This document shows positions 19,901-32,262 of a DNA stretch of 39,956 nt, one piece after another. Every line of letters starts with the position of its first letter. The first letter of the stretch is position 1. The translations under genes and the position numbers were made by a program. The notes beneath the pieces were generated by a model. The model ran no database searches, had not been told where the DNA came from, and saw only the letters and a list, made by a program, of their open reading frames with translations. The DNA is from Candidatus Dormiibacterota bacterium (GTDB taxonomy: Bacteria; Chloroflexota; Dormibacteria; Aeolococcales; Aeolococcaceae), in the NCBI GenBank assembly GCA_003141695.1, contig PLNE01000098.1, positions 5,287 through 45,242 on the forward strand, given 5' to 3'.

Positions 19901-20019
19901 TCCGCAGAGGGTGCTTTCGCGACGTGGAGCACAAAGCGCCGCCCACACCGGCGCGGGTGTCGCCGCCCGTGCCACCTCGACAGCGGCCGCCCCGGCCCGC
20001 GTCGCATAATCCTGACCAC

Positions 20020-20178
20020 ACCTGAATAACGCCCCGGGTTGAACGGGAAGCCGGTGTGAATCCGGCGCTGTCGCGCAACTGTGAGCGGGGAGCCAAGGTC
20101 AGCGTGCCACTGCGAGACGTGAGTCTCGTGGGAAGGCGACCGATGGCGACGATCCGCAAGCCAGGAGACCGACCCGAG
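20020..20178 (+). ncRNA. Cobalamin (adenosylcobalamin-type) riboswitch
   Basis: The region carries the conserved cobalamin aptamer core: GAACGGGAAGCCGGTGTGAA, then TCCGGCGCTG, CGCGCAACTGTGAGCGGGGAG, AAGCCAGGAGACCG (the B12 box, about 20157-20172). An outer helix P1 can form between CGGGTT (20035-20040) and GACCCG (20171-20176) with one wobble pair. It lies about 100 bases upstream of a five-gene operon and predicts that the operon is controlled by a B12 coenzyme. A CATAAT hexamer at 20005-20010 could be the -10 element, although no -35 is clear. Confidence 0.95.
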
Positions 20179-20213
20179 GCACGACTCCACCCCCGCGCGT
20201 GACGGGAGGACGG

Positions 20214-20267
20214 CCTCATGGCGGCGAGGATGCCTTCGGCGAGGTGGAGACCGATCGCCGCCTGAGG
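20214..20267 (+). promoter_or_regulatory. RBS-sequestering hairpin (riboswitch expression platform)
   Basis: CCTCATGGCGGC (20214-20225) pairs with GCCGCCTGAGG (20257-20267) as an 11-base-pair stem with a single bulged T. The right arm includes part of the GAGGAG ribosome binding site (20264-20269) of the gene starting at 20276. A competing pair, CTCCACC (20185-20191) with GGTGGAG (20243-20249), overlaps the loop. The design fits translational control by the upstream riboswitch. Confidence 0.65.
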
Positions 20268-20275
20268 AGCGTGGG

Positions 20276-22537
20276 ATGAAGGGATCCCGCAGGTGCACCG
20301 CCGTGGTGACGGCACTAGGTCTCGTCGGCGCGTGTGCGCTCTTCGGCGTGCAACCGGGGAGGGTGGTCCAGGCGCAGGAGGACCCCGCCTCGCGCGCGCT
20401 CGCGTATCTGCAGACGCAGCAGCAGCCGGACGGGTCCATCCCGGGAACGGCGGGCAGCTACGCGGACAGCGAGCTGTACGCCATCGCGGCGGCGGCCGAC
20501 GGGTACGACCCCAACGCGCTCAGCGCGCCATCCGGCACCTCGGTGATGACCTACCTGGCGGACAACGCCGCCGCCGCCTGCACGGTGAGCGACCCGGGCG
20601 CGTGCGGCGAGCTGATCCAGGCGGTGGTCGCCGCCGGAGGACATCCCGCCAGCTTCGGGGGCCAGGACCTGCTGACCACGCTGGCCGTCGCTTACGACGC
20701 GACCACGGGCGAGTACGGCGACGGGGAGGCCTTCACCCAGGCGCTCGCCATCCAGGGGCTGGTGGCCGCCGGCGCCCAGGTGCCCGCCGCTGCCGTCACG
20801 CTCCTGGTGGGCGCCCAGGACAGTGACGGCGGCTGGGACTACGAGGACGACGCCAACGACCCCAACGCGGCTACCGACTATGACGCGAGCGACACCAACT
20901 CCACGGCGATGGTGTTGATGGCGCTGGACGCCACTGGTGACCACACGGATGACGCGAGCGCCCTGACCTGGCTGACCGGCCAGCTGGACACGGACGGCGG
21001 CTTCCCGTACCAGGCCGGCCCCCTCGCCTACAGTGACCCGGACTCGACGGCGCTGGTGGTGCAGGCGATCGTCGCGACGGGAGGCGACCCGTTCGCCGCC
21101 GCCTGGACGACGGCAGGCGGGAGTACGCCGCTCGGCTACCTGGAGGCCACCCAGGCCGCCGACGGTGGCTACACCTTCCCCGGCAACTCCGGCCCCGACG
21201 CCTTCACAACCAGCGAGGTACCGGCCGCGCTGCTCCTGCAGCCCTTCCCGATCCGGGCGACTTTCAGCTCCGGATTCACCCCGGCACACGAGGATCAGTC
21301 GATCCTGCAGTCCCTGCTCTACCTGCAGACGCAGCAGGCGGCGGACGGGTCGATCGCGGGCAGCTACGCGGATAGCGAGCTGTTCGCCATCAGTGCGGCG
21401 GCCGACGGCTACGATCCCAAGGCGCTCGCGGCGCCGTCGGGGACCTCGGTGATGACCTACTTGGCCGACAACGCCGCTGCCGCCTGCACGGTGAGCGATC
21501 CGGGTGGGTGCGGCGAGCTGATCCAGGCGGTGGTCGCCGGCGGGGGCGATCCCACCAGCTTCGGGGGCCAGGATGTGCTGACCACGCTGAACGCCGCCTA
21601 CGACGCCGGCGAGTACGGGGACGGCGACGCCTTCACTCAGGCGCTCGCCATCCAGGCGCTGGTGGCCGCCGGCCTCTCGGTGCCGACGGCCGCGACCCAG
21701 TTCCTGGAGAGCACCCAGGACCCTGACCACGGCTTCGAGTACCTGCCGGGATGGGGCAGTGACACCAACTCGACGGCGATGGCGCTGATGGCGCTGGACG
21801 CCGCTGGCGATCACGCGGATGACGCGAGTGCGCTGGCGTGGCTGGCCACTCAGCAGGACACCGACGGCGGCTTCCCGTACCAGGCCGGCCCCCTCGCCTA
21901 TAGCGACCCGGACTCGACGGCGCTGGTGGTGCAGGCGATCGTCGCGACGGGGGGCGACCCGTTCGCCGCAGCATGGGTGATGGCAGACGGGAACACGCCG
22001 CTCGGCTACCTGGAGACGACCCAGGACACCGGCGGGGGCTACACCTTCCCCGGCAACTCCGGCCCCGACGCCTTCACCACCAGCGAGGTCCCGCTGGCCC
22101 TCGAGCGGCTAGCGCTGCCCGTCTCCTTTGGCAGCCGGCAGTGGTACACGCCGGGGGCGACCCTGGGCAGCCCGTCGCCACCTTCGGCGAGCCCCACCCC
22201 CACCCCCACGCCCTCCTCCGGCCCGCCGGCTGGCGTGATCACAGCGTCGCCCACGCCGACCGCATCCCCATCCGCCGCGCCGCAGGTCCGGCCGGAGTCG
22301 GAGGTCCAGACGCCGTCGCCGGCGGCCACCTCCGTGGTCGCGACCGCGGCACCCACGCCGGTCCCGGCGACGACCGCACCGTCGCCCGCGGCCCAGGCCT
22401 CCGTGGGCTCGATCGGACCCTCCGGAGCCGACCCCTCGGGGGGTTCCCCGCCGGCTCTGCTGATCTATGGGCTGGTGGCCCTTGTGGTGGCGCTGGTGGT
22501 GGGCGCCGGCCGGATCGCGCTGGTGGCGCGGCGATGA
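20276..22537 (+). CDS. Membrane-anchored intrinsic factor/transcobalamin-like protein with two alpha/alpha-barrel domains
   Basis: A 753-residue surface protein, probably the capture protein for vitamin B12. It has a signal peptide (RRCTAVVTALGLVGACALFGV..VVQA), then two homologous domains of about 280 residues (roughly 38-322 and 340-612) built from prenyltransferase/squalene-cyclase-type helical repeats such as ALAYLQTQQQPDGSIPG, DTDGGFPYQAGPLAYSDPDSTALVVQAIVATGG. Human intrinsic factor and transcobalamin use the same alpha6/alpha6 fold. A 110-residue Pro/Thr/Ser-rich stalk and a C-terminal membrane segment (LLIYGLVALVVALVVGAG) anchor it. GAGGAG lies seven bases before the ATG. The riboswitch upstream and ECF genes downstream support cobalamin; enzymatic prenyltransferase activity is unlikely because the protein is exported. 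Confidence 0.82.
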   Translation: MKGSRRCTAVVTALGLVGACALFGVQPGRVVQAQEDPASRALAYLQTQQQPDGSIPGTAGSYADSELYAIAAAADGYDPNALSAPSGTSVMTYLADNAAAACTVSDPGACGELIQAVVAAGGHPASFGGQDLLTTLAVAYDATTGEYGDGEAFTQALAIQGLVAAGAQVPAAAVTLLVGAQDSDGGWDYEDDANDPNAATDYDASDTNSTAMVLMALDATGDHTDDASALTWLTGQLDTDGGFPYQAGPLAYSDPDSTALVVQAIVATGGDPFAAAWTTAGGSTPLGYLEATQAADGGYTFPGNSGPDAFTTSEVPAALLLQPFPIRATFSSGFTPAHEDQSILQSLLYLQTQQAADGSIAGSYADSELFAISAAADGYDPKALAAPSGTSVMTYLADNAAAACTVSDPGGCGELIQAVVAGGGDPTSFGGQDVLTTLNAAYDAGEYGDGDAFTQALAIQALVAAGLSVPTAATQFLESTQDPDHGFEYLPGWGSDTNSTAMALMALDAAGDHADDASALAWLATQQDTDGGFPYQAGPLAYSDPDSTALVVQAIVATGGDPFAAAWVMADGNTPLGYLETTQDTGGGYTFPGNSGPDAFTTSEVPLALERLALPVSFGSRQWYTPGATLGSPSPPSASPTPTPTPSSGPPAGVITASPTPTASPSAAPQVRPESEVQTPSPAATSVVATAAPTPVPATTAPSPAAQASVGSIGPSGADPSGGSPPALLIYGLVALVVALVVGAGRIALVARR
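20390..22110 (+). repeat. Internal tandem duplication of the barrel domain
   Basis: The segment 20390-21240 is repeated at 21301-22110 with long nearly identical stretches, for example around 20997-21100 and 21867-21972 (both coding DGGFPYQAGPLAYSDPDSTA). The second copy lacks about 15 codons present in the first (the EDDANDPNAATDYDAS region). The nucleotide identity, including synonymous sites, points to a recent duplication. Confidence 0.9.
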
Positions 22538-23406
22538 GGGTGAGGCGCCTGGGGCATCTCCTCACCATCCCCTTGATGGGCGTCGCGCTCGGTGTCGGGG
22601 GCGGCGCGATCCACCTGCTCGCGGCGCCGGCGCCGTGCACGGCCGCGACCTACAGCAGCCACGTCACCCTCGTCGTCGAGCACGGCGACGGAGGTGTCGT
22701 CGGCCTCTGCGTCGGCTTTGACGGCACGAGCATCAGCGGGGAGGAGATCCTCCAGGCAAGCGGCCTGGAGTACGCGACGGCGGGGTACGGCTCACTCGGC
22801 GACGCGGTGTGCCAGATCGACGACGAGCCGTCGGCGTACAGCTCCTGCCTGCCGAGCGGCGGGTCGTACTGGGTGGTCTTCGTGTCGCGCGGAGGTGGCT
22901 CCTGGCAGACCTCCGGAAGCGGGATCTCGACGCTGACATTCGAGAGCGGTGATGCCGAGGGCTTCCGCTATGACTCCCAGAGTGGTGCCGATCCACCGCC
23001 GGCGTCCCCGGCGGGGATCTGCGCGGCCGCCCTTGCCGGGACGTCCGCGACTCCCTCCGGCTCTGGGAGCGGAGGCGCGACCGCCGCAGCGTCGGGCTCC
23101 GCCGGCGGTGAGGGCTCCGCTTCGGGATCCGTCCCGGGGAGCAGTGGCGGATCCGTCGCCTCACCTGGAGGTGCATCCAGCCCGGCGTCCGGCAGCCCGC
23201 AGGCATCGCCATCGGTGGGCGCTTCGGGGCCGCCGGCAGCGGTCATCGGGCCGGTCGATGGGCCGCGAACCGCCACGACCAGCTCCACGGCGGGTGGCGC
23301 CGCGGGTGCGGGCATCAGCCCGGCGCTGCTCGTGGCGGCGGTGATCCTTGGCGCGCTCGGCGGGCTGGCGGTGGTCCAGCTGCTGCTGCGCCGCAGGCGG
23401 GCATGA
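22534..23406 (+). CDS. Membrane-anchored DUF4430-like (transcobalamin C-terminal domain-like) protein
   Basis: A 290-residue exported protein starting at an ATG that shares ATGA with the previous stop. It has a signal peptide (LGHLLTIPLMGVALGVGGGAIHLLAAPAP), then a compact domain of about 110 residues containing VTLVVEHGDGGVVGLCVGFDGTSISGEEILQAS, GYGSLGDAVCQIDDEPSAYSSCL and SYWVVFVSRGGGSWQTSGSGIS. This order of a strand, an EEIL-type helix, a Gly-Asp/Cys loop and a W-W strand is what I recognise as DUF4430, the small beta domain that closes over B12 in transcobalamin. A 100-residue Ser/Gly/Pro stalk and the final membrane segment PALLVAAVILGALGGLAVVQLLL follow. It probably pairs with the upstream barrel protein. 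Confidence 0.72.
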   Translation: MRVRRLGHLLTIPLMGVALGVGGGAIHLLAAPAPCTAATYSSHVTLVVEHGDGGVVGLCVGFDGTSISGEEILQASGLEYATAGYGSLGDAVCQIDDEPSAYSSCLPSGGSYWVVFVSRGGGSWQTSGSGISTLTFESGDAEGFRYDSQSGADPPPASPAGICAAALAGTSATPSGSGSGGATAAASGSAGGEGSASGSVPGSSGGSVASPGGASSPASGSPQASPSVGASGPPAAVIGPVDGPRTATTSSTAGGAAGAGISPALLVAAVILGALGGLAVVQLLLRRRRA

Positions 23407-24227
23407 GCACACGCGCCCTGGCGGCGTGGTCGGCGTCGGGACTGGTCATCGCGCTCTCGACGAGCAATCCCGTGTATCGCGCCGCCGTCCTTCTCTGCGC
23501 CCTCAATCTCCTCCTGGCCCGGGGGCGCCGGGGATCCGGCACCCGCCTCCTCCTGACCGGCATCGGGATCGCGGGTCTGATCGCCACCCTGCTGACGCTG
23601 CTGCTGAGCCACACCGGGCAGCACGTCCTGGTGCGGCTCCCCGCCAGTATCCCGGCGATCGGCGGGCCGCTGACCTTGGAGGCGCTCGCGTTCGGCCTGG
23701 CCACCGGGCTGGGCATCGCGGCGGCCCTGCTCGCGGTGGCCCCTCTCACCCTGGTCAGCCAGCCGCACGAGCTGGTCGACGCGCTGCCCTCGCCGCTCGC
23801 CCGCACCGGTGCCGCGGTGGGCGCAGCCCTCAACCTCATCCCCGGCACCCTGCGCAGTGCCGCCGAGATCAGGGAAGCCCAGCGCATGCGGGGCTGGCGG
23901 GCGCGGCGTGTCGTCGACTGGCCGGCGGTGGCGGTGCCGGTGGTCCTCACCGCCATCGAGGGGTCGATGACCCTGGCAGAGGCAATGGAATCGCGGGCCT
24001 ACGGCACCAGCGCCCGGACCCATTTCGGCATCCAGCGCTGGGCTCGGTACGACACCCTGGTCTCCGCCACCGCCCTGCTCGGCGCCGCCGGCTTCCTGGC
24101 CCTCGCCCTCACCGGTGAGGCGCCCGGCTGGTTCCCGTTCCCGGTGCTCTCCGCGCCGGCGATCAGCGTCCCGGCGCTGCTCTGCTGCGCGCTGCTGGTG
24201 GTGCCGTCACTCCGGGCGCGACGGTAG
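23403..24227 (+). CDS. ecfT: ECF transporter transmembrane (T) component
   Basis: A 274-residue membrane protein of the EcfT/CbiQ family that couples ATP hydrolysis to substrate import. Hydrophobic segments fill the N-terminal 120 residues and the C-terminal 70; between them the cytoplasmic coupling helices carry the two expected Ala-Arg-type motifs, EAQRMRG and ESRAYG. VSQPHELVDALPSPL and AALNLIPGTLRSAAEIREAQ match the family. Its ATG overlaps the upstream stop (ATGA), and the ATPase gene begins immediately after its TAG. Within this operon it would form the shared energising module. Confidence 0.9.
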   Translation: MSTRALAAWSASGLVIALSTSNPVYRAAVLLCALNLLLARGRRGSGTRLLLTGIGIAGLIATLLTLLLSHTGQHVLVRLPASIPAIGGPLTLEALAFGLATGLGIAAALLAVAPLTLVSQPHELVDALPSPLARTGAAVGAALNLIPGTLRSAAEIREAQRMRGWRARRVVDWPAVAVPVVLTAIEGSMTLAEAMESRAYGTSARTHFGIQRWARYDTLVSATALLGAAGFLALALTGEAPGWFPFPVLSAPAISVPALLCCALLVVPSLRARR

Positions 24228-25586
24228 ATGCACACCCTCTCCTTCGCCGGACTCCATTACACGTATCCGGAGACCGCGTCCCGCGCCCTCGACGGGGTGG
24301 ACCTGGAGATCTCCTCCGGCCTCACGCTCCTCACCGGCGCATCTGGGAGCGGCAAGTCCACCCTGCTGCGGGTCTGCAACGGGCTCATCCCCCACTTCCA
24401 CGGCGGGGTGATCGGAGGCAGCGCACGCGTCCTCGGCCGCGAGGTGGTCCGCACCCCGACCCGGGAGCTCGCCCGCGAGGTCGGCTTCGTCTTCCAGGAT
24501 CCTGAGCTGCAGGCGGTCTACCCCTCCGTCGAGCGCGACGCCGCCTTTGGACTGGAGAACCTCGGTGTCGCCCGTGGGGAGATGCTCCGCCGGGTCGGCG
24601 ACGCTCTCGAGATCTGCGGCATCGCCCACCTCCGGAGCCGTGCGGTCGGCACCCTCTCCGGCGGCGAGCGGCAGAGGCTCGCGCTGGCCGGGGTGCTGGC
24701 GATGCGCCCGCGACTGCTGGTCCTCGATGAGCCGCTCTCCCAGCTCGACCCGGAGGGTGCGGCCGCGCTGCTCGCCGCGCTCCACGCCGCCGTCCAGGCT
24801 GGCACCACGGCACTGGTGGCGGAGCACCGCCATCACCTGGTGCTGGGGCGTGCCGATCGGTGCCTGCGCATGGCCGAGGGACGGGTCACCGCGTGCGCCC
24901 CGGAGCGGCCGGTCGAGACCGCGCCTCTTGCGGCGTCCCGCGGCGTCCGGGTCTCCCCCGAGCTCAGCTGGCGCCTTCACCAGGTGAGCGCCGGCCCCGC
25001 GGGGGTCGCGGTGCTGCACGACCTCGACCTGGCGGGGGGGACCGGCGAGGTGGTGGCTCTCACCGGCGCCAACGGCAGCGGCAAGACCACCCTGCTGCGC
25101 ACCATCGCCGGGCTGCTCCCCCCACTGTCGGGCAGCGTGGAGCGTTGCCCCGGCCGGATCGCCTACCTGCCCCAGAATCCGTCAGCGCTCCTGCACCGGG
25201 CGACGGTGCGCTCGGAGATCGATTGGACGCTGCGGCGCACCCACTCGACGGGCCGGGCTGACACGGTGCTGGAGGAGCTGGGGCTTGCCGCCGTGGCCGA
25301 GCGCGATCCGCGGGACCTCAGCACCGGCCAGCGCCAGCGGGCGGCCCTCGCCTCGGTGCTCGCGGGCAGCCCTGCGCTGGTGCTCCTGGACGAGCCGACG
25401 CGGGGGATGGACGGCGCCGCCCGCGCTGCCCTGACCGCGGCCGTGGCCCGCATCGCGGATCGGGGCGGGAGCGCGGTGGTGGCGACCCACGATCCGCAGC
25501 TGGTGGCCGCGGTGGCCACCCGGGTGGTCGATCTCGGCGAGGGTATCGCCCGGGAGCGGCGGTCACTCACGGCGGCAGCCAGATGA
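24228..25586 (+). CDS. Fused ECF transporter ATPase (EcfA-EcfA' in one chain)
   Basis: A 452-residue protein holding two ABC ATPase domains. Domain 1 has Walker A GASGSGKST near residue 37, Q-loop VFQDPELQAVYPSVERDAAFGLENLG (the ECF type), signature LSGGERQR and Walker B LLVLDEPLSQLDP. Domain 2, from about residue 245, has Walker A GANGSGKTT near residue 278, IAYLPQNPSALLHRATVRSEI, signature LSTGQRQR (a Thr instead of the usual first Gly) and Walker B LVLLDEPTRGMDG. In many bacteria the two subunits are separate genes; here they are one. The ATG directly follows the EcfT stop, without its own ribosome binding site, so translation is coupled. Confidence 0.93.
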   Translation: MHTLSFAGLHYTYPETASRALDGVDLEISSGLTLLTGASGSGKSTLLRVCNGLIPHFHGGVIGGSARVLGREVVRTPTRELAREVGFVFQDPELQAVYPSVERDAAFGLENLGVARGEMLRRVGDALEICGIAHLRSRAVGTLSGGERQRLALAGVLAMRPRLLVLDEPLSQLDPEGAAALLAALHAAVQAGTTALVAEHRHHLVLGRADRCLRMAEGRVTACAPERPVETAPLAASRGVRVSPELSWRLHQVSAGPAGVAVLHDLDLAGGTGEVVALTGANGSGKTTLLRTIAGLLPPLSGSVERCPGRIAYLPQNPSALLHRATVRSEIDWTLRRTHSTGRADTVLEELGLAAVAERDPRDLSTGQRQRAALASVLAGSPALVLLDEPTRGMDGAARAALTAAVARIADRGGSAVVATHDPQLVAAVATRVVDLGEGIARERRSLTAAAR

Positions 25587-26518
25587 CGTGGCGGCGGTGG
25601 CGGCCGGATGACACCCGCGGCGGTGGCCCGATGAGGCCCGCGGCGGTTGTCCCGATGACGCTCGTGGTTGTGTCGATCCTCGGGGCGGCGCTCTTCATCT
25701 GGCCGTTTGCCGTCTCCAGCGCTCCCGCTCCGGTGGTGGCACTCACCCTGGCCCTGGGGACCCTCGCCGCCCTCGCCGCGGTGGAGACGGCGATGCGCCG
25801 TCTCGACGCGCGGCGCTTCGCCCTTCTCGCCGCCATCGCCGGCATCGACGCGGCGCTGCGGCTCGTCCTGGTGACCGGCGCCGGGGGGTTCAGCCCGATC
25901 TTCTTCCTCATTCTCGCCACCGGTTACGTCTACGGGCCCTCCTTCGGCTTCCTCTGCGGGGCCACGTCGCTGCTCGCGTCGGCGGTGGCCACCGGGGGTA
26001 TCGGGCCCTGGCTCCCCTACGAGATGTTCGGTTGCGGCTGGACCGGGGCGGCGGCGGGGATCGCCGGGCTTCGCCGTTCCTCGACCCCGGGCATGCGGGA
26101 CATCGCCGTTCTCGCGGTCGTCAGCGTGGTCGCCGGCTACGCCTACGGGGCGCTCCTCGACGTCTGGGATTGGACCACCTTCTACCGGGGGAGCCCCTCG
26201 TTCGGATTCCTGCCGGGCGCCGGGACGGGGGTGCTCCTGCAGCGGTTCGGGCGCTTCTACCTGGCCACCTCGGTGGTCTGGGACAGCTTTCGCGCCGCCG
26301 GTGACGCTCTCGCCGTGATCGTCCTCGGGCTGCCCGTGCTCGCTGCCCTGGCGCGGGTGAAGAGCAGGCTGACCTTCACCGTCTCCAGCCCGGGAGGTGG
26401 CGACGGAGCCCGGCCGTCCTCAGATGGCGCGGTGCCCTGGGCCTCCGGTGCCGGGCTCGCCGCTCAGCCCCCCACCCCGACCCGGTCGGGCCTGCTGCCC
26501 GGGTCGGGGTCTCAGTGA
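25583..26518 (+). CDS. ECF transporter substrate-binding S component, predicted for cobalamin
   Basis: A 311-residue membrane protein with about six hydrophobic segments starting near residue 22. FFLILATGYVYGPSFGFLCGATSLLASAVATGGIGPWLPYEMFGCGWTGAAAGIAG is the characteristic S-component core: a small-residue helix that docks on EcfT and a loop with conserved Gly, Pro and Trp. Its ATG overlaps the ATPase stop (ATGA). The last 55 residues are disordered Gly/Ser/Pro sequence. The riboswitch and the transcobalamin-like partners point to B12 (compare CbrT), but specificity is inferred. Its 3' end overlaps the convergent dehydrogenase gene by seven bases, and a GC-rich stem sits in its last codons. 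Confidence 0.85.
   Translation: MTWRRWRPDDTRGGGPMRPAAVVPMTLVVVSILGAALFIWPFAVSSAPAPVVALTLALGTLAALAAVETAMRRLDARRFALLAAIAGIDAALRLVLVTGAGGFSPIFFLILATGYVYGPSFGFLCGATSLLASAVATGGIGPWLPYEMFGCGWTGAAAGIAGLRRSSTPGMRDIAVLAVVSVVAGYAYGALLDVWDWTTFYRGSPSFGFLPGAGTGVLLQRFGRFYLATSVVWDSFRAAGDALAVIVLGLPVLAALARVKSRLTFTVSSPGGGDGARPSSDGAVPWASGAGLAAQPPTPTRSGLLPGSGSQ
26474..26510. terminator. GC-rich stem at the end of the ECF operon
   Basis: ACCCCGACCCGG (26474-26485) pairs perfectly with CCGGGTCGGGGT (26499-26510) around a 13-base loop. It lies inside the last codons of the S-component gene and at the 3' end of the convergent dehydrogenase gene. There is no T-run; it may separate the two transcripts. Confidence 0.55.
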
Positions 26519-27729
26519 CCCTTGGGGGTGCGCTCTTCGCAGCCCCAGGGGGTGTTGTGAGACGTGAGCAGCTCCAGGAAGGGGTCCGCCGGGAACGCCT
26601 CCGGACCGAGGACGCCGGCTCCCGACCAGACCTTGGACTCGATCAGCTCGAGCGCGGCCAGCGGGTTGACCGCCGTCTGCCACACCACCGCCTGCGACCC
26701 GTACTCGGCCATCGAGGCGGCGTTGTCCACCACGTGATAGAGATAGACCTCACGCGGCTTGCCGTCCTTCCCGGTGCCGCGCACCAACGTGCCGGCGCAG
26801 GTCAGGCCGGACATGCGATCCCCCAGGCCGGCGGGATCGGGCAGGCACGCGGCCACGACGTCGCGCGGCGAGACCCGGCATTCGCCGACCTCCACCGGGG
26901 AGGTCGAGTCCAGCCCGAGCTTGTGCAGCGCCTTGAGGACGCCGATGAACTCGCCGCCCAGCCCGTACTTGAAGGTGACCCGCCTGCAATCGACCCAGCG
27001 CGGCACCAGGAGCACCTCCTCGTGCTCCACGTTCACGCACTCGACCGGACCGATGCCCGCGGGGAAGTCGAATATCTCGGGCTCGCTGAAGGGCGGCGTC
27101 GTGTACCAGCCACGCCCGCGCTCGTAGATGATCGGCGGGTTGAGGCATTCCTCGATCGTCGTCCAGATGGAGAAGGTGGGGGCGAACTCGTATCCCTCGA
27201 CGACCAGGTTGGCCCCGTCGCGGACGCCCACCTCGTCGATGGAGGAGAAGAGGTGATCGGCGGCGTAGCGCGCGAAGACGTCGGCGAGGCCGGGCTCCAC
27301 GCCCATCCCCACCAGGGCCAGGAGCCCCTTGCTCTCCCATTCACCGGCGAGGGCAAACTGCTCGTCCCCGAGCTTGACGCCGGGCGTGGCGAAGGGGTCG
27401 TCCGGGTGGGGGCGGGAGAGCGACATGGCCATGTCCAGGTAATTGACCCCGGAGGCCAGCGCGGCCCGGAAGAGAGGCATGACGAACCTGGGGTCCACGG
27501 CGTTGAGGAGCACGTCGCACCGCTCCGCCGCCAGGAGTTGCGCCACCGCCTTCTCGTCGCCGGCATCCAGGCCAACGGCCGTGAACCGGGCGCCAGCGGC
27601 GGCGACGGCGCGCTCCGCCCTGACTCGGTCGTGGTCGGCGACCACCATCGCCTCGAACAGGTTCCAGCGCGACGCCGTGCGGGCGATCGCGGTCCCGACT
27701 CCACCGGCCCCGACCAGCAATACACGCAT
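26512..27729 (-). CDS. Saccharopine dehydrogenase-like NAD(P)-dependent oxidoreductase
   Basis: A 405-residue protein with an N-terminal Rossmann fold ([22 protein letters not shown]) followed by [14 protein letters not shown] and [33 protein letters not shown], the Sacchrp_dh_NADP pattern; the larger C-terminal half ([34 protein letters not shown]..) matches the catalytic part of saccharopine/carboxynorspermidine dehydrogenases. Such enzymes form or split a secondary amine between an amino acid or diamine and an aldehyde. It is divergent from the aldehyde dehydrogenase-GabT-permease cluster, so it probably acts in the same diamine or lysine route. GGAGGG lies nine bases before the ATG, with a TATAAT element just upstream. 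Confidence 0.85.
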
Positions 27730-27824: not shown

Positions 27825-29268
27825 GTGGGCGCTACAGACGGCAGATGGGGAAACTTCGTGGGGGGCCGGTACGTCGACCCCAAGGACGGCTCCTTCAGTC
27901 AGCTCATCGATCCTGTGACCGGAGAGCCGTTCGCCGCGGCACCACTCTCTCAACCCGCGGATGTGGAGCACGCCCTCGGCGTTGCGCAGGCGGCGTTCGA
28001 GAAGTGGCGTGAGACCACTCCGGCGGAGCGGAGCCTCGCCCTGCTGCGCTTCGCCGACGCGGTCGAGAAGCGCGGTGCTGAGCTGGTCGACCTCGAGTGC
28101 CGCAACACCGGCAAGCCGCGTGCCCTGACGACCTCCGAGGAGCTGCCGCCGGTGCTCGACCAGATCCGCTTCTTTGCCGGCGCGTGCCGGCTTCTCGAAG
28201 GACGCGCGGCGGCCGAGTACATGCGGGGCTACACCTCCTTCGTGCGCCGGGAGCCGGTGGGGGTGTGCGCCCAGGTGACGCCCTGGAACTACCCGATGAT
28301 GATGGCGGTGTGGAAGTTCGCACCGGCCATCGCCGCGGGGAACACCGTCGTCCTCAAGCCGGCTCACACCACCCCGCTCAGCACCCTGTTCCTGGCTGAG
28401 ATCGCTGCGGAGTTCCTCCCGCCCGGGGTGCTGAACGTGCTCTGCGGGAGCAACCGCGACATGGGTGCCGCCTTGATCGGCCACCCGATCCCCCGCATGG
28501 TCTCGATCACCGGCAGCGTGCGAGCCGGACGCGAGGTGGCTCAGACGGCGGCTGTCGATCTCAAGAGGGTGCATCTCGAGCTGGGAGGCAAGGCCCCCGT
28601 GGTCGTGTTCGACGACGTCGACGTGGCCAAGGCGGCCGCGGGCATCGCCATGGCCGGCTTCTTCAACGCGGGCCAGGACTGCACGGCCGCCACGCGTGTG
28701 CTCGCTGCTCCGCGTGTCTACGCAGACCTGGTCGACGCGCTGGCGGAGCGGGCCAGGAGCCAGGTGGTCGGCGCTCCGGACGATGCGCACGTGGACCTCG
28801 GTCCGCTCAACAGTGAACACCAGCTCAAGGTCGTGAGCGGCTACGTGGATCGGCTGCCCGCGCACACCGAGGTGCGCGCCGGTGGCCACCGCATCGGCGA
28901 CCGGGGCTTCTTCTACCAGCCCACCGTGGTCACCGGGGTCGAGCAGCCCGACGAGATCGTCCAGGAGGAGGTGTTCGGACCGGTCATCACGGTGCAGCGC
29001 TTCTCCGACGAGGAGCAGGCCGTGACCTGGGCCAATGAGGTCGAGTTCGGGCTGGCATCATCGGTCTGGACCCGCGACCACGGTCGCGCGATGCGCATGA
29101 GCAAGCGGCTCGACTTCGGGTGCGTCTGGATCAACACGCACATCCCGCTGGTGGCCGAGATGCCCCACGGTGGCTTCCGGCATTCGGCGGTACGGCAAGG
29201 ATCTGTCGGTGTACGGCTTCGAGGACTACACGAGGATCAAGCACGTCATGACGGCGCTGGACGTCTGA
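27825..29268 (+). CDS. Aminobutyraldehyde/betaine-type aldehyde dehydrogenase, frameshifted near the end
   Basis: An NAD-dependent aldehyde dehydrogenase of about 480 residues, likely oxidising an omega-amino aldehyde such as 4-aminobutyraldehyde. [45 protein letters not shown], the catalytic Glu in [15 protein letters not shown] and the catalytic Cys in [14 protein letters not shown] are intact. After [10 protein letters not shown] (about 29190) the frame breaks: one base extra in TCGGCGGTAC. In the +1 frame the normal ending resumes as [20 protein letters not shown] and stops at TGA 29266-29268. Without correction the frame reads straight through into GabT, giving a 926-codon artefact. GTG start at 27825 with GGAGG upstream. 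It may be a sequencing error or a real lesion. Confidence 0.85.
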
Positions 29269-29285
29269 GCCAGGTGGGCCCGAAG

Positions 29286-30605
29286 GTGAACACCACCCCC
29301 GACGAGGTTCCGCAACAGCGCCGGCTCCTGACCGAGATCCCCGGGCCGCGCTCCCGCGAGCTGGCCGGGCGCCGGGATCGCGCCATCCCCAGGGGGGTGA
29401 GCACCACCCTGCCCGTCTTCGTCGTCCGGGCGGGCCCGGGCATCCTCGAGGACGTCGACGGCAACCGGCTGATCGACTTCGGCTCCGGCATCTCGACGAC
29501 CAATGCCGGCAACAGCGCCCCCTTGGTGGTCGAGGCCATCCAGGAGCAGGCCGCCCTCTTCACTCACACGTGCTTCCAGGTGACCCCGTACGCCGGCTAT
29601 GTCGAGGTCTGCGAGCGCCTGAATCAGCTCACCCCGGGAGACCACGAGAAGCGCTCCTTCCTGGTCAACTCCGGCGCCGAGGCGATCGAGAACGTGGTCA
29701 AGGTGGCGCGCTACGCGACCGGCCGCCCGGGGATCGTGGCCTTCGACCACGGCTTTCACGGGCGCACCCTGCTGACCATGACGCTGACCGGCAAGGCCAT
29801 GCCCTACAAGCGCGGATTCGGCCCCTTCGCCCCGGAGGTCCATCGCGCCCCCTACTCGTATCCCTTCCGAGGGACGGGGCGCCTCGCCGAGACCATCACC
29901 ATGCTGGAGACGAGCGTCGGGGCGGAGAGCATCGCCGCGGTGCTCGTCGAGCCGATCGCCGGCGAGGGTGGGGTCGTCGTGCCGGAGGCGGGATGGCTCG
30001 CCGGCCTGGCCGGTTGGTGCCGGGAGCGGGGCATTCTCCTCATCGCCGACGAGGTCCAGACCGGCTTCGGGCGCACCGGCGACTGGTTCGCCTGCGAGCA
30101 CGAGGGGGTCGTGCCCGACCTGGTGGCGACCGCCAAGAGCCTGGGGGGCGGGCTGCCCATCGGTGGGGTGACGGGCCGCGCCGAGGTGATGGACTCGGTC
30201 CACCCCGGGGGCCTCGGCGGGACCTTCGGGGGCAACCCGGTCTCCTGCGCCGCCTCCCTGGCCGCGATCCGCACCATCGAGACCGAGGGTCTCATCGAGC
30301 GAGCCCGCCTCATTGGCGAGGCGGTGCTCCCCCGGCTGCGCAAGCTCTCCGCCACCCTACCCGCGGTCGGGGAGGTGCGCGGCAGGGGCGCGATGGTGGG
30401 CATCGAGTTCGTCCGGGACGACGGGATCACGCCGGACCGGGAGATCACCGGCCGGGTGCTGCGCAGGTGCCATCAAGCCGGGCTCCTGGTGCTCACGGCG
30501 GGGACCTACGGCAACGTCATCCGCCTCCTCCCACCGCTCGTCATCTCGGACGGGCTCCTCGAGGAGGGGCTGGCGATCCTGGAGCAGGCGGTGGCGGCGT
30601 CATGA
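29286..30605 (+). CDS. gabT: 4-aminobutyrate aminotransferase (class III)
   Basis: A 439-residue PLP enzyme that moves the amino group of GABA to 2-oxoglutarate, giving succinate semialdehyde. Features of class III aminotransferases: [50 protein letters not shown], the PLP-binding Asp in [15 protein letters not shown] and the Schiff-base Lys in [21 protein letters not shown] at 29286 was chosen because AGGTGG lies eight bases upstream; GTG at 29274 is the other option. It begins 18 bases after the corrected aldehyde dehydrogenase stop. The product would be used by the downstream semialdehyde dehydrogenase at 32271. Confidence 0.88.
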
Positions 30606-30672: not shown

Positions 30673-32262
30673 ATGACCGCGAGCACCCTCACCGAGACCC
30701 AGGTGGACAAGGGTCTCAAGCCCGGCGCTCTCTCCCTCGTCTCCAACATCGTCATCGGGGTGGCCTCGGTGGCGCCCGCCTACAGCCTGGCGGCGACCCT
30801 GGGTTTCGTCGTCGGCCTGGTGGGGCTGATCACCCCGCTCGTGGTGGTGATCGCCTTCATCCCCATGCTGTTCGTCTCGATCGGCTACAGCGAGATGAAC
30901 AAGGCCGACCCCGATTGCGGCACCACCTTCACCTGGGCGACGCGCGCCTTCGGCCCGCGCACCGGCTGGATGGGCGGCTGGGCCATCCTCGCATCGGACA
31001 TCCTGGTCATGGCCAGCCTCGCCCAGGTGGCCTCCCAGTACACCTACCTGCTCTTCAACGCCACCAGCATCGGCCGGGATGCGACGAGCGGCTGGGTGCT
31101 GCTGCTCGGTGTGGTGTTCATCGCCGTGATGACCTACATCTGCTACCGGGGCATCGAGATCTCGGCGCGGATCCAGCGGGTGCTGCTCTCGATCGAGGTG
31201 GTCATGCTGCTCGTCTTCGGCCTGGTGGCGCTTGTCCGGGTGCTGACCGGCAACGCACCTCCCGGCCACGTGACGCCGAGCTTCTCCTGGTTCAACCCGG
31301 GGGCGGTGCCGTTCTCGGCGCTGGTCAGCGGCCTCATCCTCATGCTCTTCATCTACTGGGGCTGGGACACGTCGGTCTCCGTCAACGAGGAGACCGCCGA
31401 TCGCACCCGGTCCCCCGGGCTGGCTGCGATCATCTCCACCGTCCTGCTGCTGGGGATGTACTTCATCGTCACCCTGGGCGCCCAGTCGTTCGTCGGCGTG
31501 GGGACCACCGGGCTCGGCCTCTCCAACCCGGCCAACGCGGGTGACGTGATCTCCGTCCTCGGCATCGCGGTGTTCGGCAGCTCCTGGCTGGGCCAGGTCT
31601 TCTACCACCTCCTCCTGCTCATGGTGTTGAGCTCGGCGGCCGCCTCGACGCAGACGACCATCCTCCCGACCGCCCGCACCATGCTTTCGATGGCGGTGTA
31701 CAAGGCGATCCCCGACTCGTTCGCCAAGATGCACCCGCGCTACTTCACTCCCACGGTGGCCACCCTGGCGATGGGGGGCGTCTCGGCCGTCATGTACGCG
31801 GCGATGAACTACATCTCCGGCGGTGACGTGATCGCCGACGCGGTCACTGCCATCGGCGTCTGGATCGCCTTCTACTACGGCCTGACCGGTTTCACCTGCG
31901 GCTGGTACTACCGCAAGACCCTGCTGAGCAGCGCCCGCAACCTCTGGATGCGCGGCGTCCTTCCGGTGCTGGGCGGGCTGATGCTCTACTTCGCCCTGGG
32001 CTGGAGCGTCAAGGCCGACTTCGACTTCAGCAGCGGGGTCAGCTACACCTCCTGGCAGCTCCCCGTCGGGCCCCGCTGGGTGATCGGCGGCGTGTTTCTC
32101 ATCGCCCTGGGCTCGGCGGTGCTGGGGGTGGTCCTGATGGCCGCGTGGAACATCGCCCGCCCGGCCTTCTTCCGCGGCGAGATCCTCAACCGATCCACGC
32201 CGACCCTGGTGCCCGACGAGCCCGTGATCCCGGGCATCAGCCCTCCCACGAGCGCCGCCTAG
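30673..32262 (+). CDS. APC-family amino acid/polyamine permease
   Basis: A 529-residue permease with about twelve hydrophobic segments and the APC pattern: SLVSNIVIGVASVAPAYSLAATLGFVVG in helix 1, PMLFVSIGYSEMNKADPDCGTTFTWATRAFGPRTGWMGGW after helix 2 and the helix 6-7 region LMLFIYWGWDTSVSVNEETAD. GGAGGGACCCC stands directly before its ATG. Located between gabT and a succinate-semialdehyde dehydrogenase gene, it probably imports GABA, putrescine or a related amine for this pathway. The substrate cannot be fixed from sequence alone. Confidence 0.9.
   Translation: MTASTLTETQVDKGLKPGALSLVSNIVIGVASVAPAYSLAATLGFVVGLVGLITPLVVVIAFIPMLFVSIGYSEMNKADPDCGTTFTWATRAFGPRTGWMGGWAILASDILVMASLAQVASQYTYLLFNATSIGRDATSGWVLLLGVVFIAVMTYICYRGIEISARIQRVLLSIEVVMLLVFGLVALVRVLTGNAPPGHVTPSFSWFNPGAVPFSALVSGLILMLFIYWGWDTSVSVNEETADRTRSPGLAAIISTVLLLGMYFIVTLGAQSFVGVGTTGLGLSNPANAGDVISVLGIAVFGSSWLGQVFYHLLLLMVLSSAAASTQTTILPTARTMLSMAVYKAIPDSFAKMHPRYFTPTVATLAMGGVSAVMYAAMNYISGGDVIADAVTAIGVWIAFYYGLTGFTCGWYYRKTLLSSARNLWMRGVLPVLGGLMLYFALGWSVKADFDFSSGVSYTSWQLPVGPRWVIGGVFLIALGSAVLGVVLMAAWNIARPAFFRGEILNRSTPTLVPDEPVIPGISPPTSAA

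Follow-up and report, generated by a model that had tools for sequence, protein, structure and literature searches.

Two described systems are close to the locus considered here. Burroughs et al. 2007 (PMC1796856) recognized bacterial proteins in which SLBB and toroid domains are fused in either order and anchored, and which are encoded with a CbiO-like ATPase and a CbiQ-like membrane protein; a role in scavenging vitamin B12 was proposed for them, in bacteria without B12 synthesis. The second is ECF-CbrT from Lactobacillus delbrueckii, an energy-coupling factor (ECF) transporter for B12 whose structure has been solved (6FNP, PMC5997447). Here we analyse an operon within a 39,956-nucleotide stretch of DNA from a soil bacterium, Candidatus Dormiibacterota bacterium (contig PLNE01000098.1), the whole of which we call the window. 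In this operon a cobalamin riboswitch precedes five genes, for an anchored toroid protein (A), an anchored beta-grasp protein (B), EcfT (T), a fused EcfA-EcfA' ATPase (AA') and an ECF S component (S).

We consider it highly probable that this is a B12-repressed operon for corrinoid import; a preliminary description of the window had proposed capture of B12 outside the membrane and its import. All the tests behind this view are indirect, and it is supported because the riboswitch is conserved (38 of 43 operons), B has the fold of a transcobalamin beta domain, a natural A-B fusion matches transcobalamin, and the S profile matches CbrT. The general idea is not new: an independent prediction that follows the same logic was published in 2007 (PMC1796856). 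New in the present analysis are the evidence from riboswitches, an S component resembling CbrT, and how far this divergent branch extends.

Organization of the operon

The features of the operon are as follows.

20019..20191, + strand: full-length cobalamin riboswitch aptamer, RF00174 (105.7 bits against the Rfam gathering cut-off of 31.5, E 1.2e-25, covering model positions 1-189)
20214..20268, + strand: candidate expression-platform hairpin, CCUC pairing with GAGG of the gene A ribosome-binding site (minimum-free-energy structure)
20276..22537, + strand: gene A, 753 amino acids (aa), secreted and C-terminally anchored, with two alpha/alpha-toroid (squalene-cyclase/prenyltransferase-like) barrels
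20375..21292, + strand: A barrel 1 (profile E 2.5e-96; the profile itself includes barrel 1)
21293..22165, + strand: A barrel 2 (74% identity with barrel 1)
22454..22510, + strand: A C-terminal transmembrane anchor, after a P/S/T-rich linker (hydropathy, residues 727-745)
22534..23406, + strand: gene B, 290 aa, secreted and C-terminally anchored beta-grasp protein (DUF4430/transcobalamin beta-domain fold, SCO2322-like)
22627..23019, + strand: B beta-grasp domain, the modelled region (mean predicted local distance difference test score, pLDDT, 89.3; PDB matches 3u7z, transcobalamin, haptocorrin)
23326..23382, + strand: B C-terminal transmembrane anchor (hydropathy, residues 265-283)
23403..24227, + strand: EcfT (T), CbiQ family (PF02361, 36.7 bits against a cut-off of 25)
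24228..25586, + strand: fused EcfA-EcfA' ATPase (AA'), two nucleotide-binding domains (ABC_tran, two stretches, E 5e-53)
25583..26518, + strand: ECF S component (S), CbrT/FolT-related (ECF_trnsprt, 21.3 bits; CbrT profile match)

The identities first assigned to these genes (anchored barrel protein, EcfT, fused EcfA-A', S component) are borne out by Pfam and hydropathy. T matches CbiQ, AA' has two ABC_tran domains in one 452-aa protein, and S matches ECF_trnsprt weakly (its score lies under the cut-off of 30.7 bits). The claim that all five genes are joined by overlap or abutment stands for the first three junctions: A/B and B/T share ATGA overlaps, and T and AA' abut, TAG then ATG. The ATGA overlap of AA' with S holds only if S starts at 25583, and it is uncertain because the S proteins of relatives align from residue 25, which gives an internal ATG at 25655 as an alternative start.

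The riboswitch at the head of the operon is the only cobalamin riboswitch that a whole-genome search found in the 3.09 Mb assembly. Downstream of the aptamer, the leader of gene A can form a hairpin that pairs the GAGG of the ribosome-binding site, but it folds no significantly better than shuffled sequences (z-score only -1.4); it is a weak candidate for the expression platform and the mode of control.

Conservation of the riboswitch and distribution of the operon

Homologues of S are present in 35 of 151 genomes of the phylum. Their neighbourhoods follow several arrangements (riboswitch-A-B-T-AA'-S, riboswitch-A-B-S-T-AA', riboswitch-A-T-AA'-B-S and riboswitch-B-T-AA'-S), and a riboswitch lies upstream in 16 of the 19 Chloroflexota loci in which a receptor/transporter operon can be seen. 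Scanning GTDB species genomes with a profile yielded 589 relatives; the 80 loci kept lie in Dormibacterota, Chloroflexota and Actinomycetota, Streptomyces included. Annotation of these loci with hidden Markov models shows A, B, T, AA' and S occurring together. An initial combined alignment of A-only and B-only proteins had misaligned A into the B region and was replaced by a revised one. Viral contigs searched with the S component gave no relatives.

The co-occurrence with cobalamin riboswitches, a survey of which was suggested at the outset, persists at this larger scale. Among scanned operons of named genomes with a visible start, 38 of 43 are preceded by a cobalamin riboswitch in the same orientation, at 149-502 nucleotides (nt) 5' of the first A or B domain, and these include operons of Streptomyces, Kribbella, Amycolatopsis, Acidimicrobiales and Anaerolineae. 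The count combines whole-genome riboswitch searches mapped to the loci with direct Rfam scans; coordinate mapping gave a few coincidental placements (two in L090, for example), and in ten loci the genuine riboswitches were verified by scanning directly. Three of the 38 riboswitches (L105, L116 and L136) score 28.6-31 bits, below the Rfam cut-off, and the matches in L099 and L103, at 31.1 bits, fall just below it as well; all of them are in the expected place. A match in L110, mapped about 870 nt 5' of the first domain match, was not counted. The genomes surveyed carry 1-14 riboswitches per 1-11 Mb, and by our estimate well under one such placement would be expected by chance across the set. 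We also looked among homologous operons for a family lacking the cobalamin riboswitch and tied to another vitamin, and encountered none.

The receptor-like proteins A and B

Protein A has an N-terminal hydrophobic stretch (residues 7-25) in addition to its C-terminal anchor, and is a tandem duplicate, a feature absent from the preliminary description: its two barrels are identical at 217 of 295 aligned columns. Pfam identifies alpha/alpha-toroid types (SQHop_cyclase_C, 42 bits; TED_complement, 27.7 bits), and the NCBIfam model SCO2321_fam (NF053823) scores 143.6 bits, under its curated cut-off of 300, so that A is related to this family and lies outside it. A sequence search of the PDB with A returned only squalene cyclases, prenyltransferases and other toroids; transcobalamin came up only in comparisons of fold. 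PF01122 (Cobalamin_bind) does not match A of the window, and the best match to it among homologues has an E-value of 0.29. Weaker toroid matches in other genomes sit in frames of about 450-910 aa and are probably ordinary squalene cyclases. Stand-alone A genes behind cobalamin riboswitches of their own are found in three loci (L112:1732-3021, - strand; L145:1633-2760, - strand; L139:16652-17867, + strand), and two of the three genes run divergently to the main operon.

Protein B likewise begins with a hydrophobic stretch (residues 12-30), and a linker of G/S-rich type precedes its C-terminal anchor. A PDB sequence search with B found nothing relevant, and SCO2322_fam (NF040672) scores 13.6 bits against a curated cut-off of 85, which places B as related to that family and outside it. 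The domain model, built with 56 natural family members, has strands at 11-18 and 24-31, a helix at 38-45, a hairpin at 49-53/59-64, and strands at 80-87, 104-106 and 110-117. This strand order is that of a beta-grasp in which an additional hairpin follows the helix, the feature that distinguishes the transcobalamin-like SLBB clade (PMC1796856). The best Foldseek match of the model in the PDB is 3u7z, a DUF4430 structure (Ruminococcus gnavus RUMGNA_00854) whose CATH superfamily is shared with the animal B12 carriers (PMC13385337), followed by transcobalamin and haptocorrin entries; the E-values of these best matches are 4e-5 to 1e-2, and one of the entries, 5np4, shows the beta domain of transcobalamin by itself with cyanocobalamin.

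The original labelling of B as DUF4430-like thus holds by fold and by profile-profile comparison with Pfam-confirmed DUF4430 proteins (93.9%, E 1.5e-7), and fails by Pfam itself: DUF4430 matches none of 17 aligned members of the B family, nor anything in the host genome. Matches at the Pfam level occur in only 3 of 201 genomes of the phylum. In two of the corresponding loci (L063 and L064) T-AA'-S is directly preceded by a true DUF4430 gene, which in L063 comes right after a toroid gene. This is the slot of B, which suggests that DUF4430 and B have equivalent roles in such operons. In the third genome (L151:7658-8748, - strand) a sub-threshold riboswitch match (23.8 bits, E 0.038) is followed by a small secreted DUF4430 gene and a DUF6580 membrane protein; this trio is a candidate for a minimal B12 uptake unit and offers a hint to the function of DUF6580.

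At many loci the A and B domains share one open frame, in both orders. The fusions include A-B in Nocardioidaceae (L143), A-A-B in Chloroflexota (L090), B-A (L089), and B-A-A in L092 and about ten actinobacterial loci, one of which has three barrels. Barrel and beta-grasp thus form one unit in homologous operons; in the window they are separate genes. Some actinobacterial fusions end in a sortase-type LAXTG-like motif, which is consistent with surface anchoring. An AlphaFold model of the L143 fusion has a pLDDT of 85, with lower confidence in the beta domain, and when it was compared by Foldseek with about 350,000 PDB chains the nine best matches were all transcobalamin, at E 2.8e-9 to 8.6e-8 and spanning both domains. 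Squalene-hopene cyclases superpose on the same model with a lower root-mean-square deviation (rmsd) and a higher template-modelling (TM) score than transcobalamin does, and for this reason the predicted resemblance of A to transcobalamin depends on barrel and beta domain taken together, not on the barrel alone.

The ECF transporter and the host's apparent need for B12

A profile of 22 S proteins searched against the PDB found 6fnp first (E 2.2e-7), ahead of FolT (E 1.6e-5), and no cobalt S component was among the matches. Judged by sequence, S is a membrane S component with CbrT as its best solved relative, and cobalamin transport is predicted for it. In L055 (9434-13417, + strand), S, EcfT and both EcfA domains share one 1327-aa frame adjoining a B-A-A fusion, which would put a whole ECF transporter into a single chain; GC content is high there, and the initial portion of this reading frame may be spurious. 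Solitary S homologues, with no EcfT, receptor or riboswitch nearby, occur in L046, L047, L050, L052, L054, L056-L058, L060-L062 and L065. For five of these (L046, L047, L050, L056 and L061) neighbours were inspected for a link to another vitamin and were uninformative; they include an ammonium transporter, a pseudouridine synthase and a solute-binding protein.

The host genome encodes a B12-binding domain within a frame of 1227 aa, which matches methionine synthase (MetH) in length. The corrin-ring gene CbiC was not found in it, nor in 28 of 30 relatives. The host thus seems unable to make B12, a conclusion that is suggestive only because the assembly is 79.6% complete.

Flanking genes

Downstream of S the window continues with a carboxynorspermidine synthase-like dehydrogenase (26512-27729, - strand) and, after dehydrogenase and aminotransferase genes, an amino acid permease (30673-32262, + strand); together these are perhaps a polyamine/amine catabolic cluster without relation to B12. 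The apparent 926-aa aldehyde dehydrogenase-aminotransferase fusion at 27825-30605 (+ strand) looks like a frameshift, either a sequencing error or a real shift, with the usual dehydrogenase ending in the next frame near 29185.

Discussion

Overall, we envisage the operon as a capture and import system for cobalamin. Low intracellular cobalamin would permit expression through the riboswitch, if the ON/OFF direction is as we suppose. The membrane-anchored double toroid A and the transcobalamin-type beta-grasp B would then capture cobalamin, their putative ligand, outside the membrane, most likely clasped between barrel and beta domain as it is in transcobalamin and intrinsic factor, and would deliver it to S, which resembles CbrT and would be powered by EcfT and the fused EcfA-A'. 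Joint extracellular capture by A and B, followed by hand-over to S, is the part of this model that we favour with some reserve, at a lower level of confidence than B12 import itself. The natural fusions in both orders argue strongly, if circumstantially, for joint action of A and B wherever the two occur.

At the same time, several observations weigh against this model. Window B has no Pfam DUF4430 (PF14478) match, and the nearest sequence relatives of A are squalene-hopene cyclases, not transcobalamin. No cobalamin riboswitch was detected at L063 and L064, the loci with true DUF4430 genes. The placement of the domains in the L143 model is unlike that in transcobalamin (TM about 0.40, rmsd about 22 Å), and the closed pocket is not reproduced. 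Finally, barrel-less riboswitch-B-T-AA'-S operons are found in four genomes (G027, G079, G111 and G071) whose assemblies are 92-96% complete, and a genome-wide profile search found no A homologue anywhere in them. Because genomes with the operon exist without any A homologue, A is dispensable, the two-part form of the receptor is not obligatory, and B may suffice.

The last of these points leads directly to the main rival explanation, in which B alone is the receptor that feeds S and A is an accessory, serving in storage, as a wall-spanning scaffold or in the capture of other cobamides, with no joint pocket. The operons and genomes without A speak for it, as do the solved complex of an isolated transcobalamin beta domain with cyanocobalamin (5np4) and the stand-alone A genes behind their own riboswitches in L112, L139 and L145. 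Set against these are the widespread A-B fusions in both orders, the conserved adjacency of A and B, and the participation of both domains in holding the ligand in transcobalamin (PMC1796856). On balance we judge this explanation unlikely, if a serious competitor to joint capture.

Less likely still is that the operon imports, in place of intact cobalamin, a precursor or analogue (cobinamide, cobyrinate, dimethylbenzimidazole/alpha-ribazole) or cobalt, and is under riboswitch control because these feed the B12 supply. Cobalt transporters are indeed also found under cobalamin riboswitches (PMC2667541), T and AA' share their families with CbiQ and CbiO, and CbrT itself takes up both cobalamin and cobinamide (PMC5997447). 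Import of intact cobalamin nonetheless accounts better for the transcobalamin beta-domain fold of B, for the match of the A-B fusions to transcobalamin, and for an S profile that finds CbrT and FolT and no cobalt S component in the PDB. In addition, as CbiC was not found in the host genome, cobalt and early precursors would probably be of little use to it. That A is a secreted terpene/squalene cyclase-like enzyme, in an operon of lipid or terpenoid function merely regulated by B12, we find scarcely credible in spite of the squalene-hopene cyclases and related alpha/alpha toroids closest to A in sequence: A is an anchored, secreted protein, a transcobalamin-like beta domain is either fused to it or encoded next to it, its operon includes a complete ECF importer with a CbrT-like S component, and its toroids have motifs of DTDSTA/DTNSTA type at what is probably the site of the DXDDTA motif of cyclases.

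If A and B do capture B12 and transfer it to S as we propose, this would be an ECF transporter fed by an extracellular two-subunit receptor, a way of working for which the papers searched give no example among ECF systems; it suggests that an ECF transporter can use an extracellular binding protein, in a class normally defined by membrane-embedded S components. The proposal would also give a testable function to two widespread protein families, SCO2321 and SCO2322, and a B12 uptake route to many Actinomycetota and Chloroflexota, streptomycetes included, over which these proteins are spread. It bears as well on the origin of the animal B12 carriers, since barrel and beta-grasp proteins are found in bacterial B12-regulated import operons.

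In the literature searched, whose coverage leaves out most subscription papers, we found no characterized system of this kind, nor any paper that shows B12 binding by these proteins, and the closest relatives each share part of its design. The NCBIfam families SCO2321 and SCO2322 (NF053823, NF040672) are the same protein types as A and B, and their adjacent Streptomyces coelicolor locus numbers match the A/B pair of the surveyed Streptomyces loci; A and B of the window score under the curated cut-offs, and the family names carry no function. The clade described in PMC1796856 likewise has secreted or anchored SLBB beta-grasp domains with a toroid on either side, in operons with an ECF-type ATPase and CbiQ. 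Its text treats the clade as a Gram-positive innovation and mentions no riboswitch, Chloroflexota or Streptomyces. The operon analysed here differs in a beta domain so divergent that Pfam DUF4430 misses it, in the separation of A from B and the doubling of the barrel, and in having a CbrT-like S component of its own and a conserved riboswitch. The animal carriers transcobalamin, intrinsic factor and haptocorrin share the alpha/alpha barrel and beta-grasp and are among the best fold matches of B and the best of the L143 fusion. Here, in contrast, there are two anchored proteins (fused only in relatives) and two barrels, the sequence is different, with no PF01122 match in the window, and delivery is predicted to be to an ECF transporter, where the animal carriers use an endocytic receptor. 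ECF-CbrT (6FNP, PMC5997447) shares the ECF module and an S component, CbrT being the best solved relative of the S profile. In L. delbrueckii, however, one ECF module is shared by eight predicted S components, and CbrT was characterized without an extracellular receptor (PMC5997447), whereas in the operon described here the ECF module is encoded together with its own S component and two anchored receptor-like proteins.

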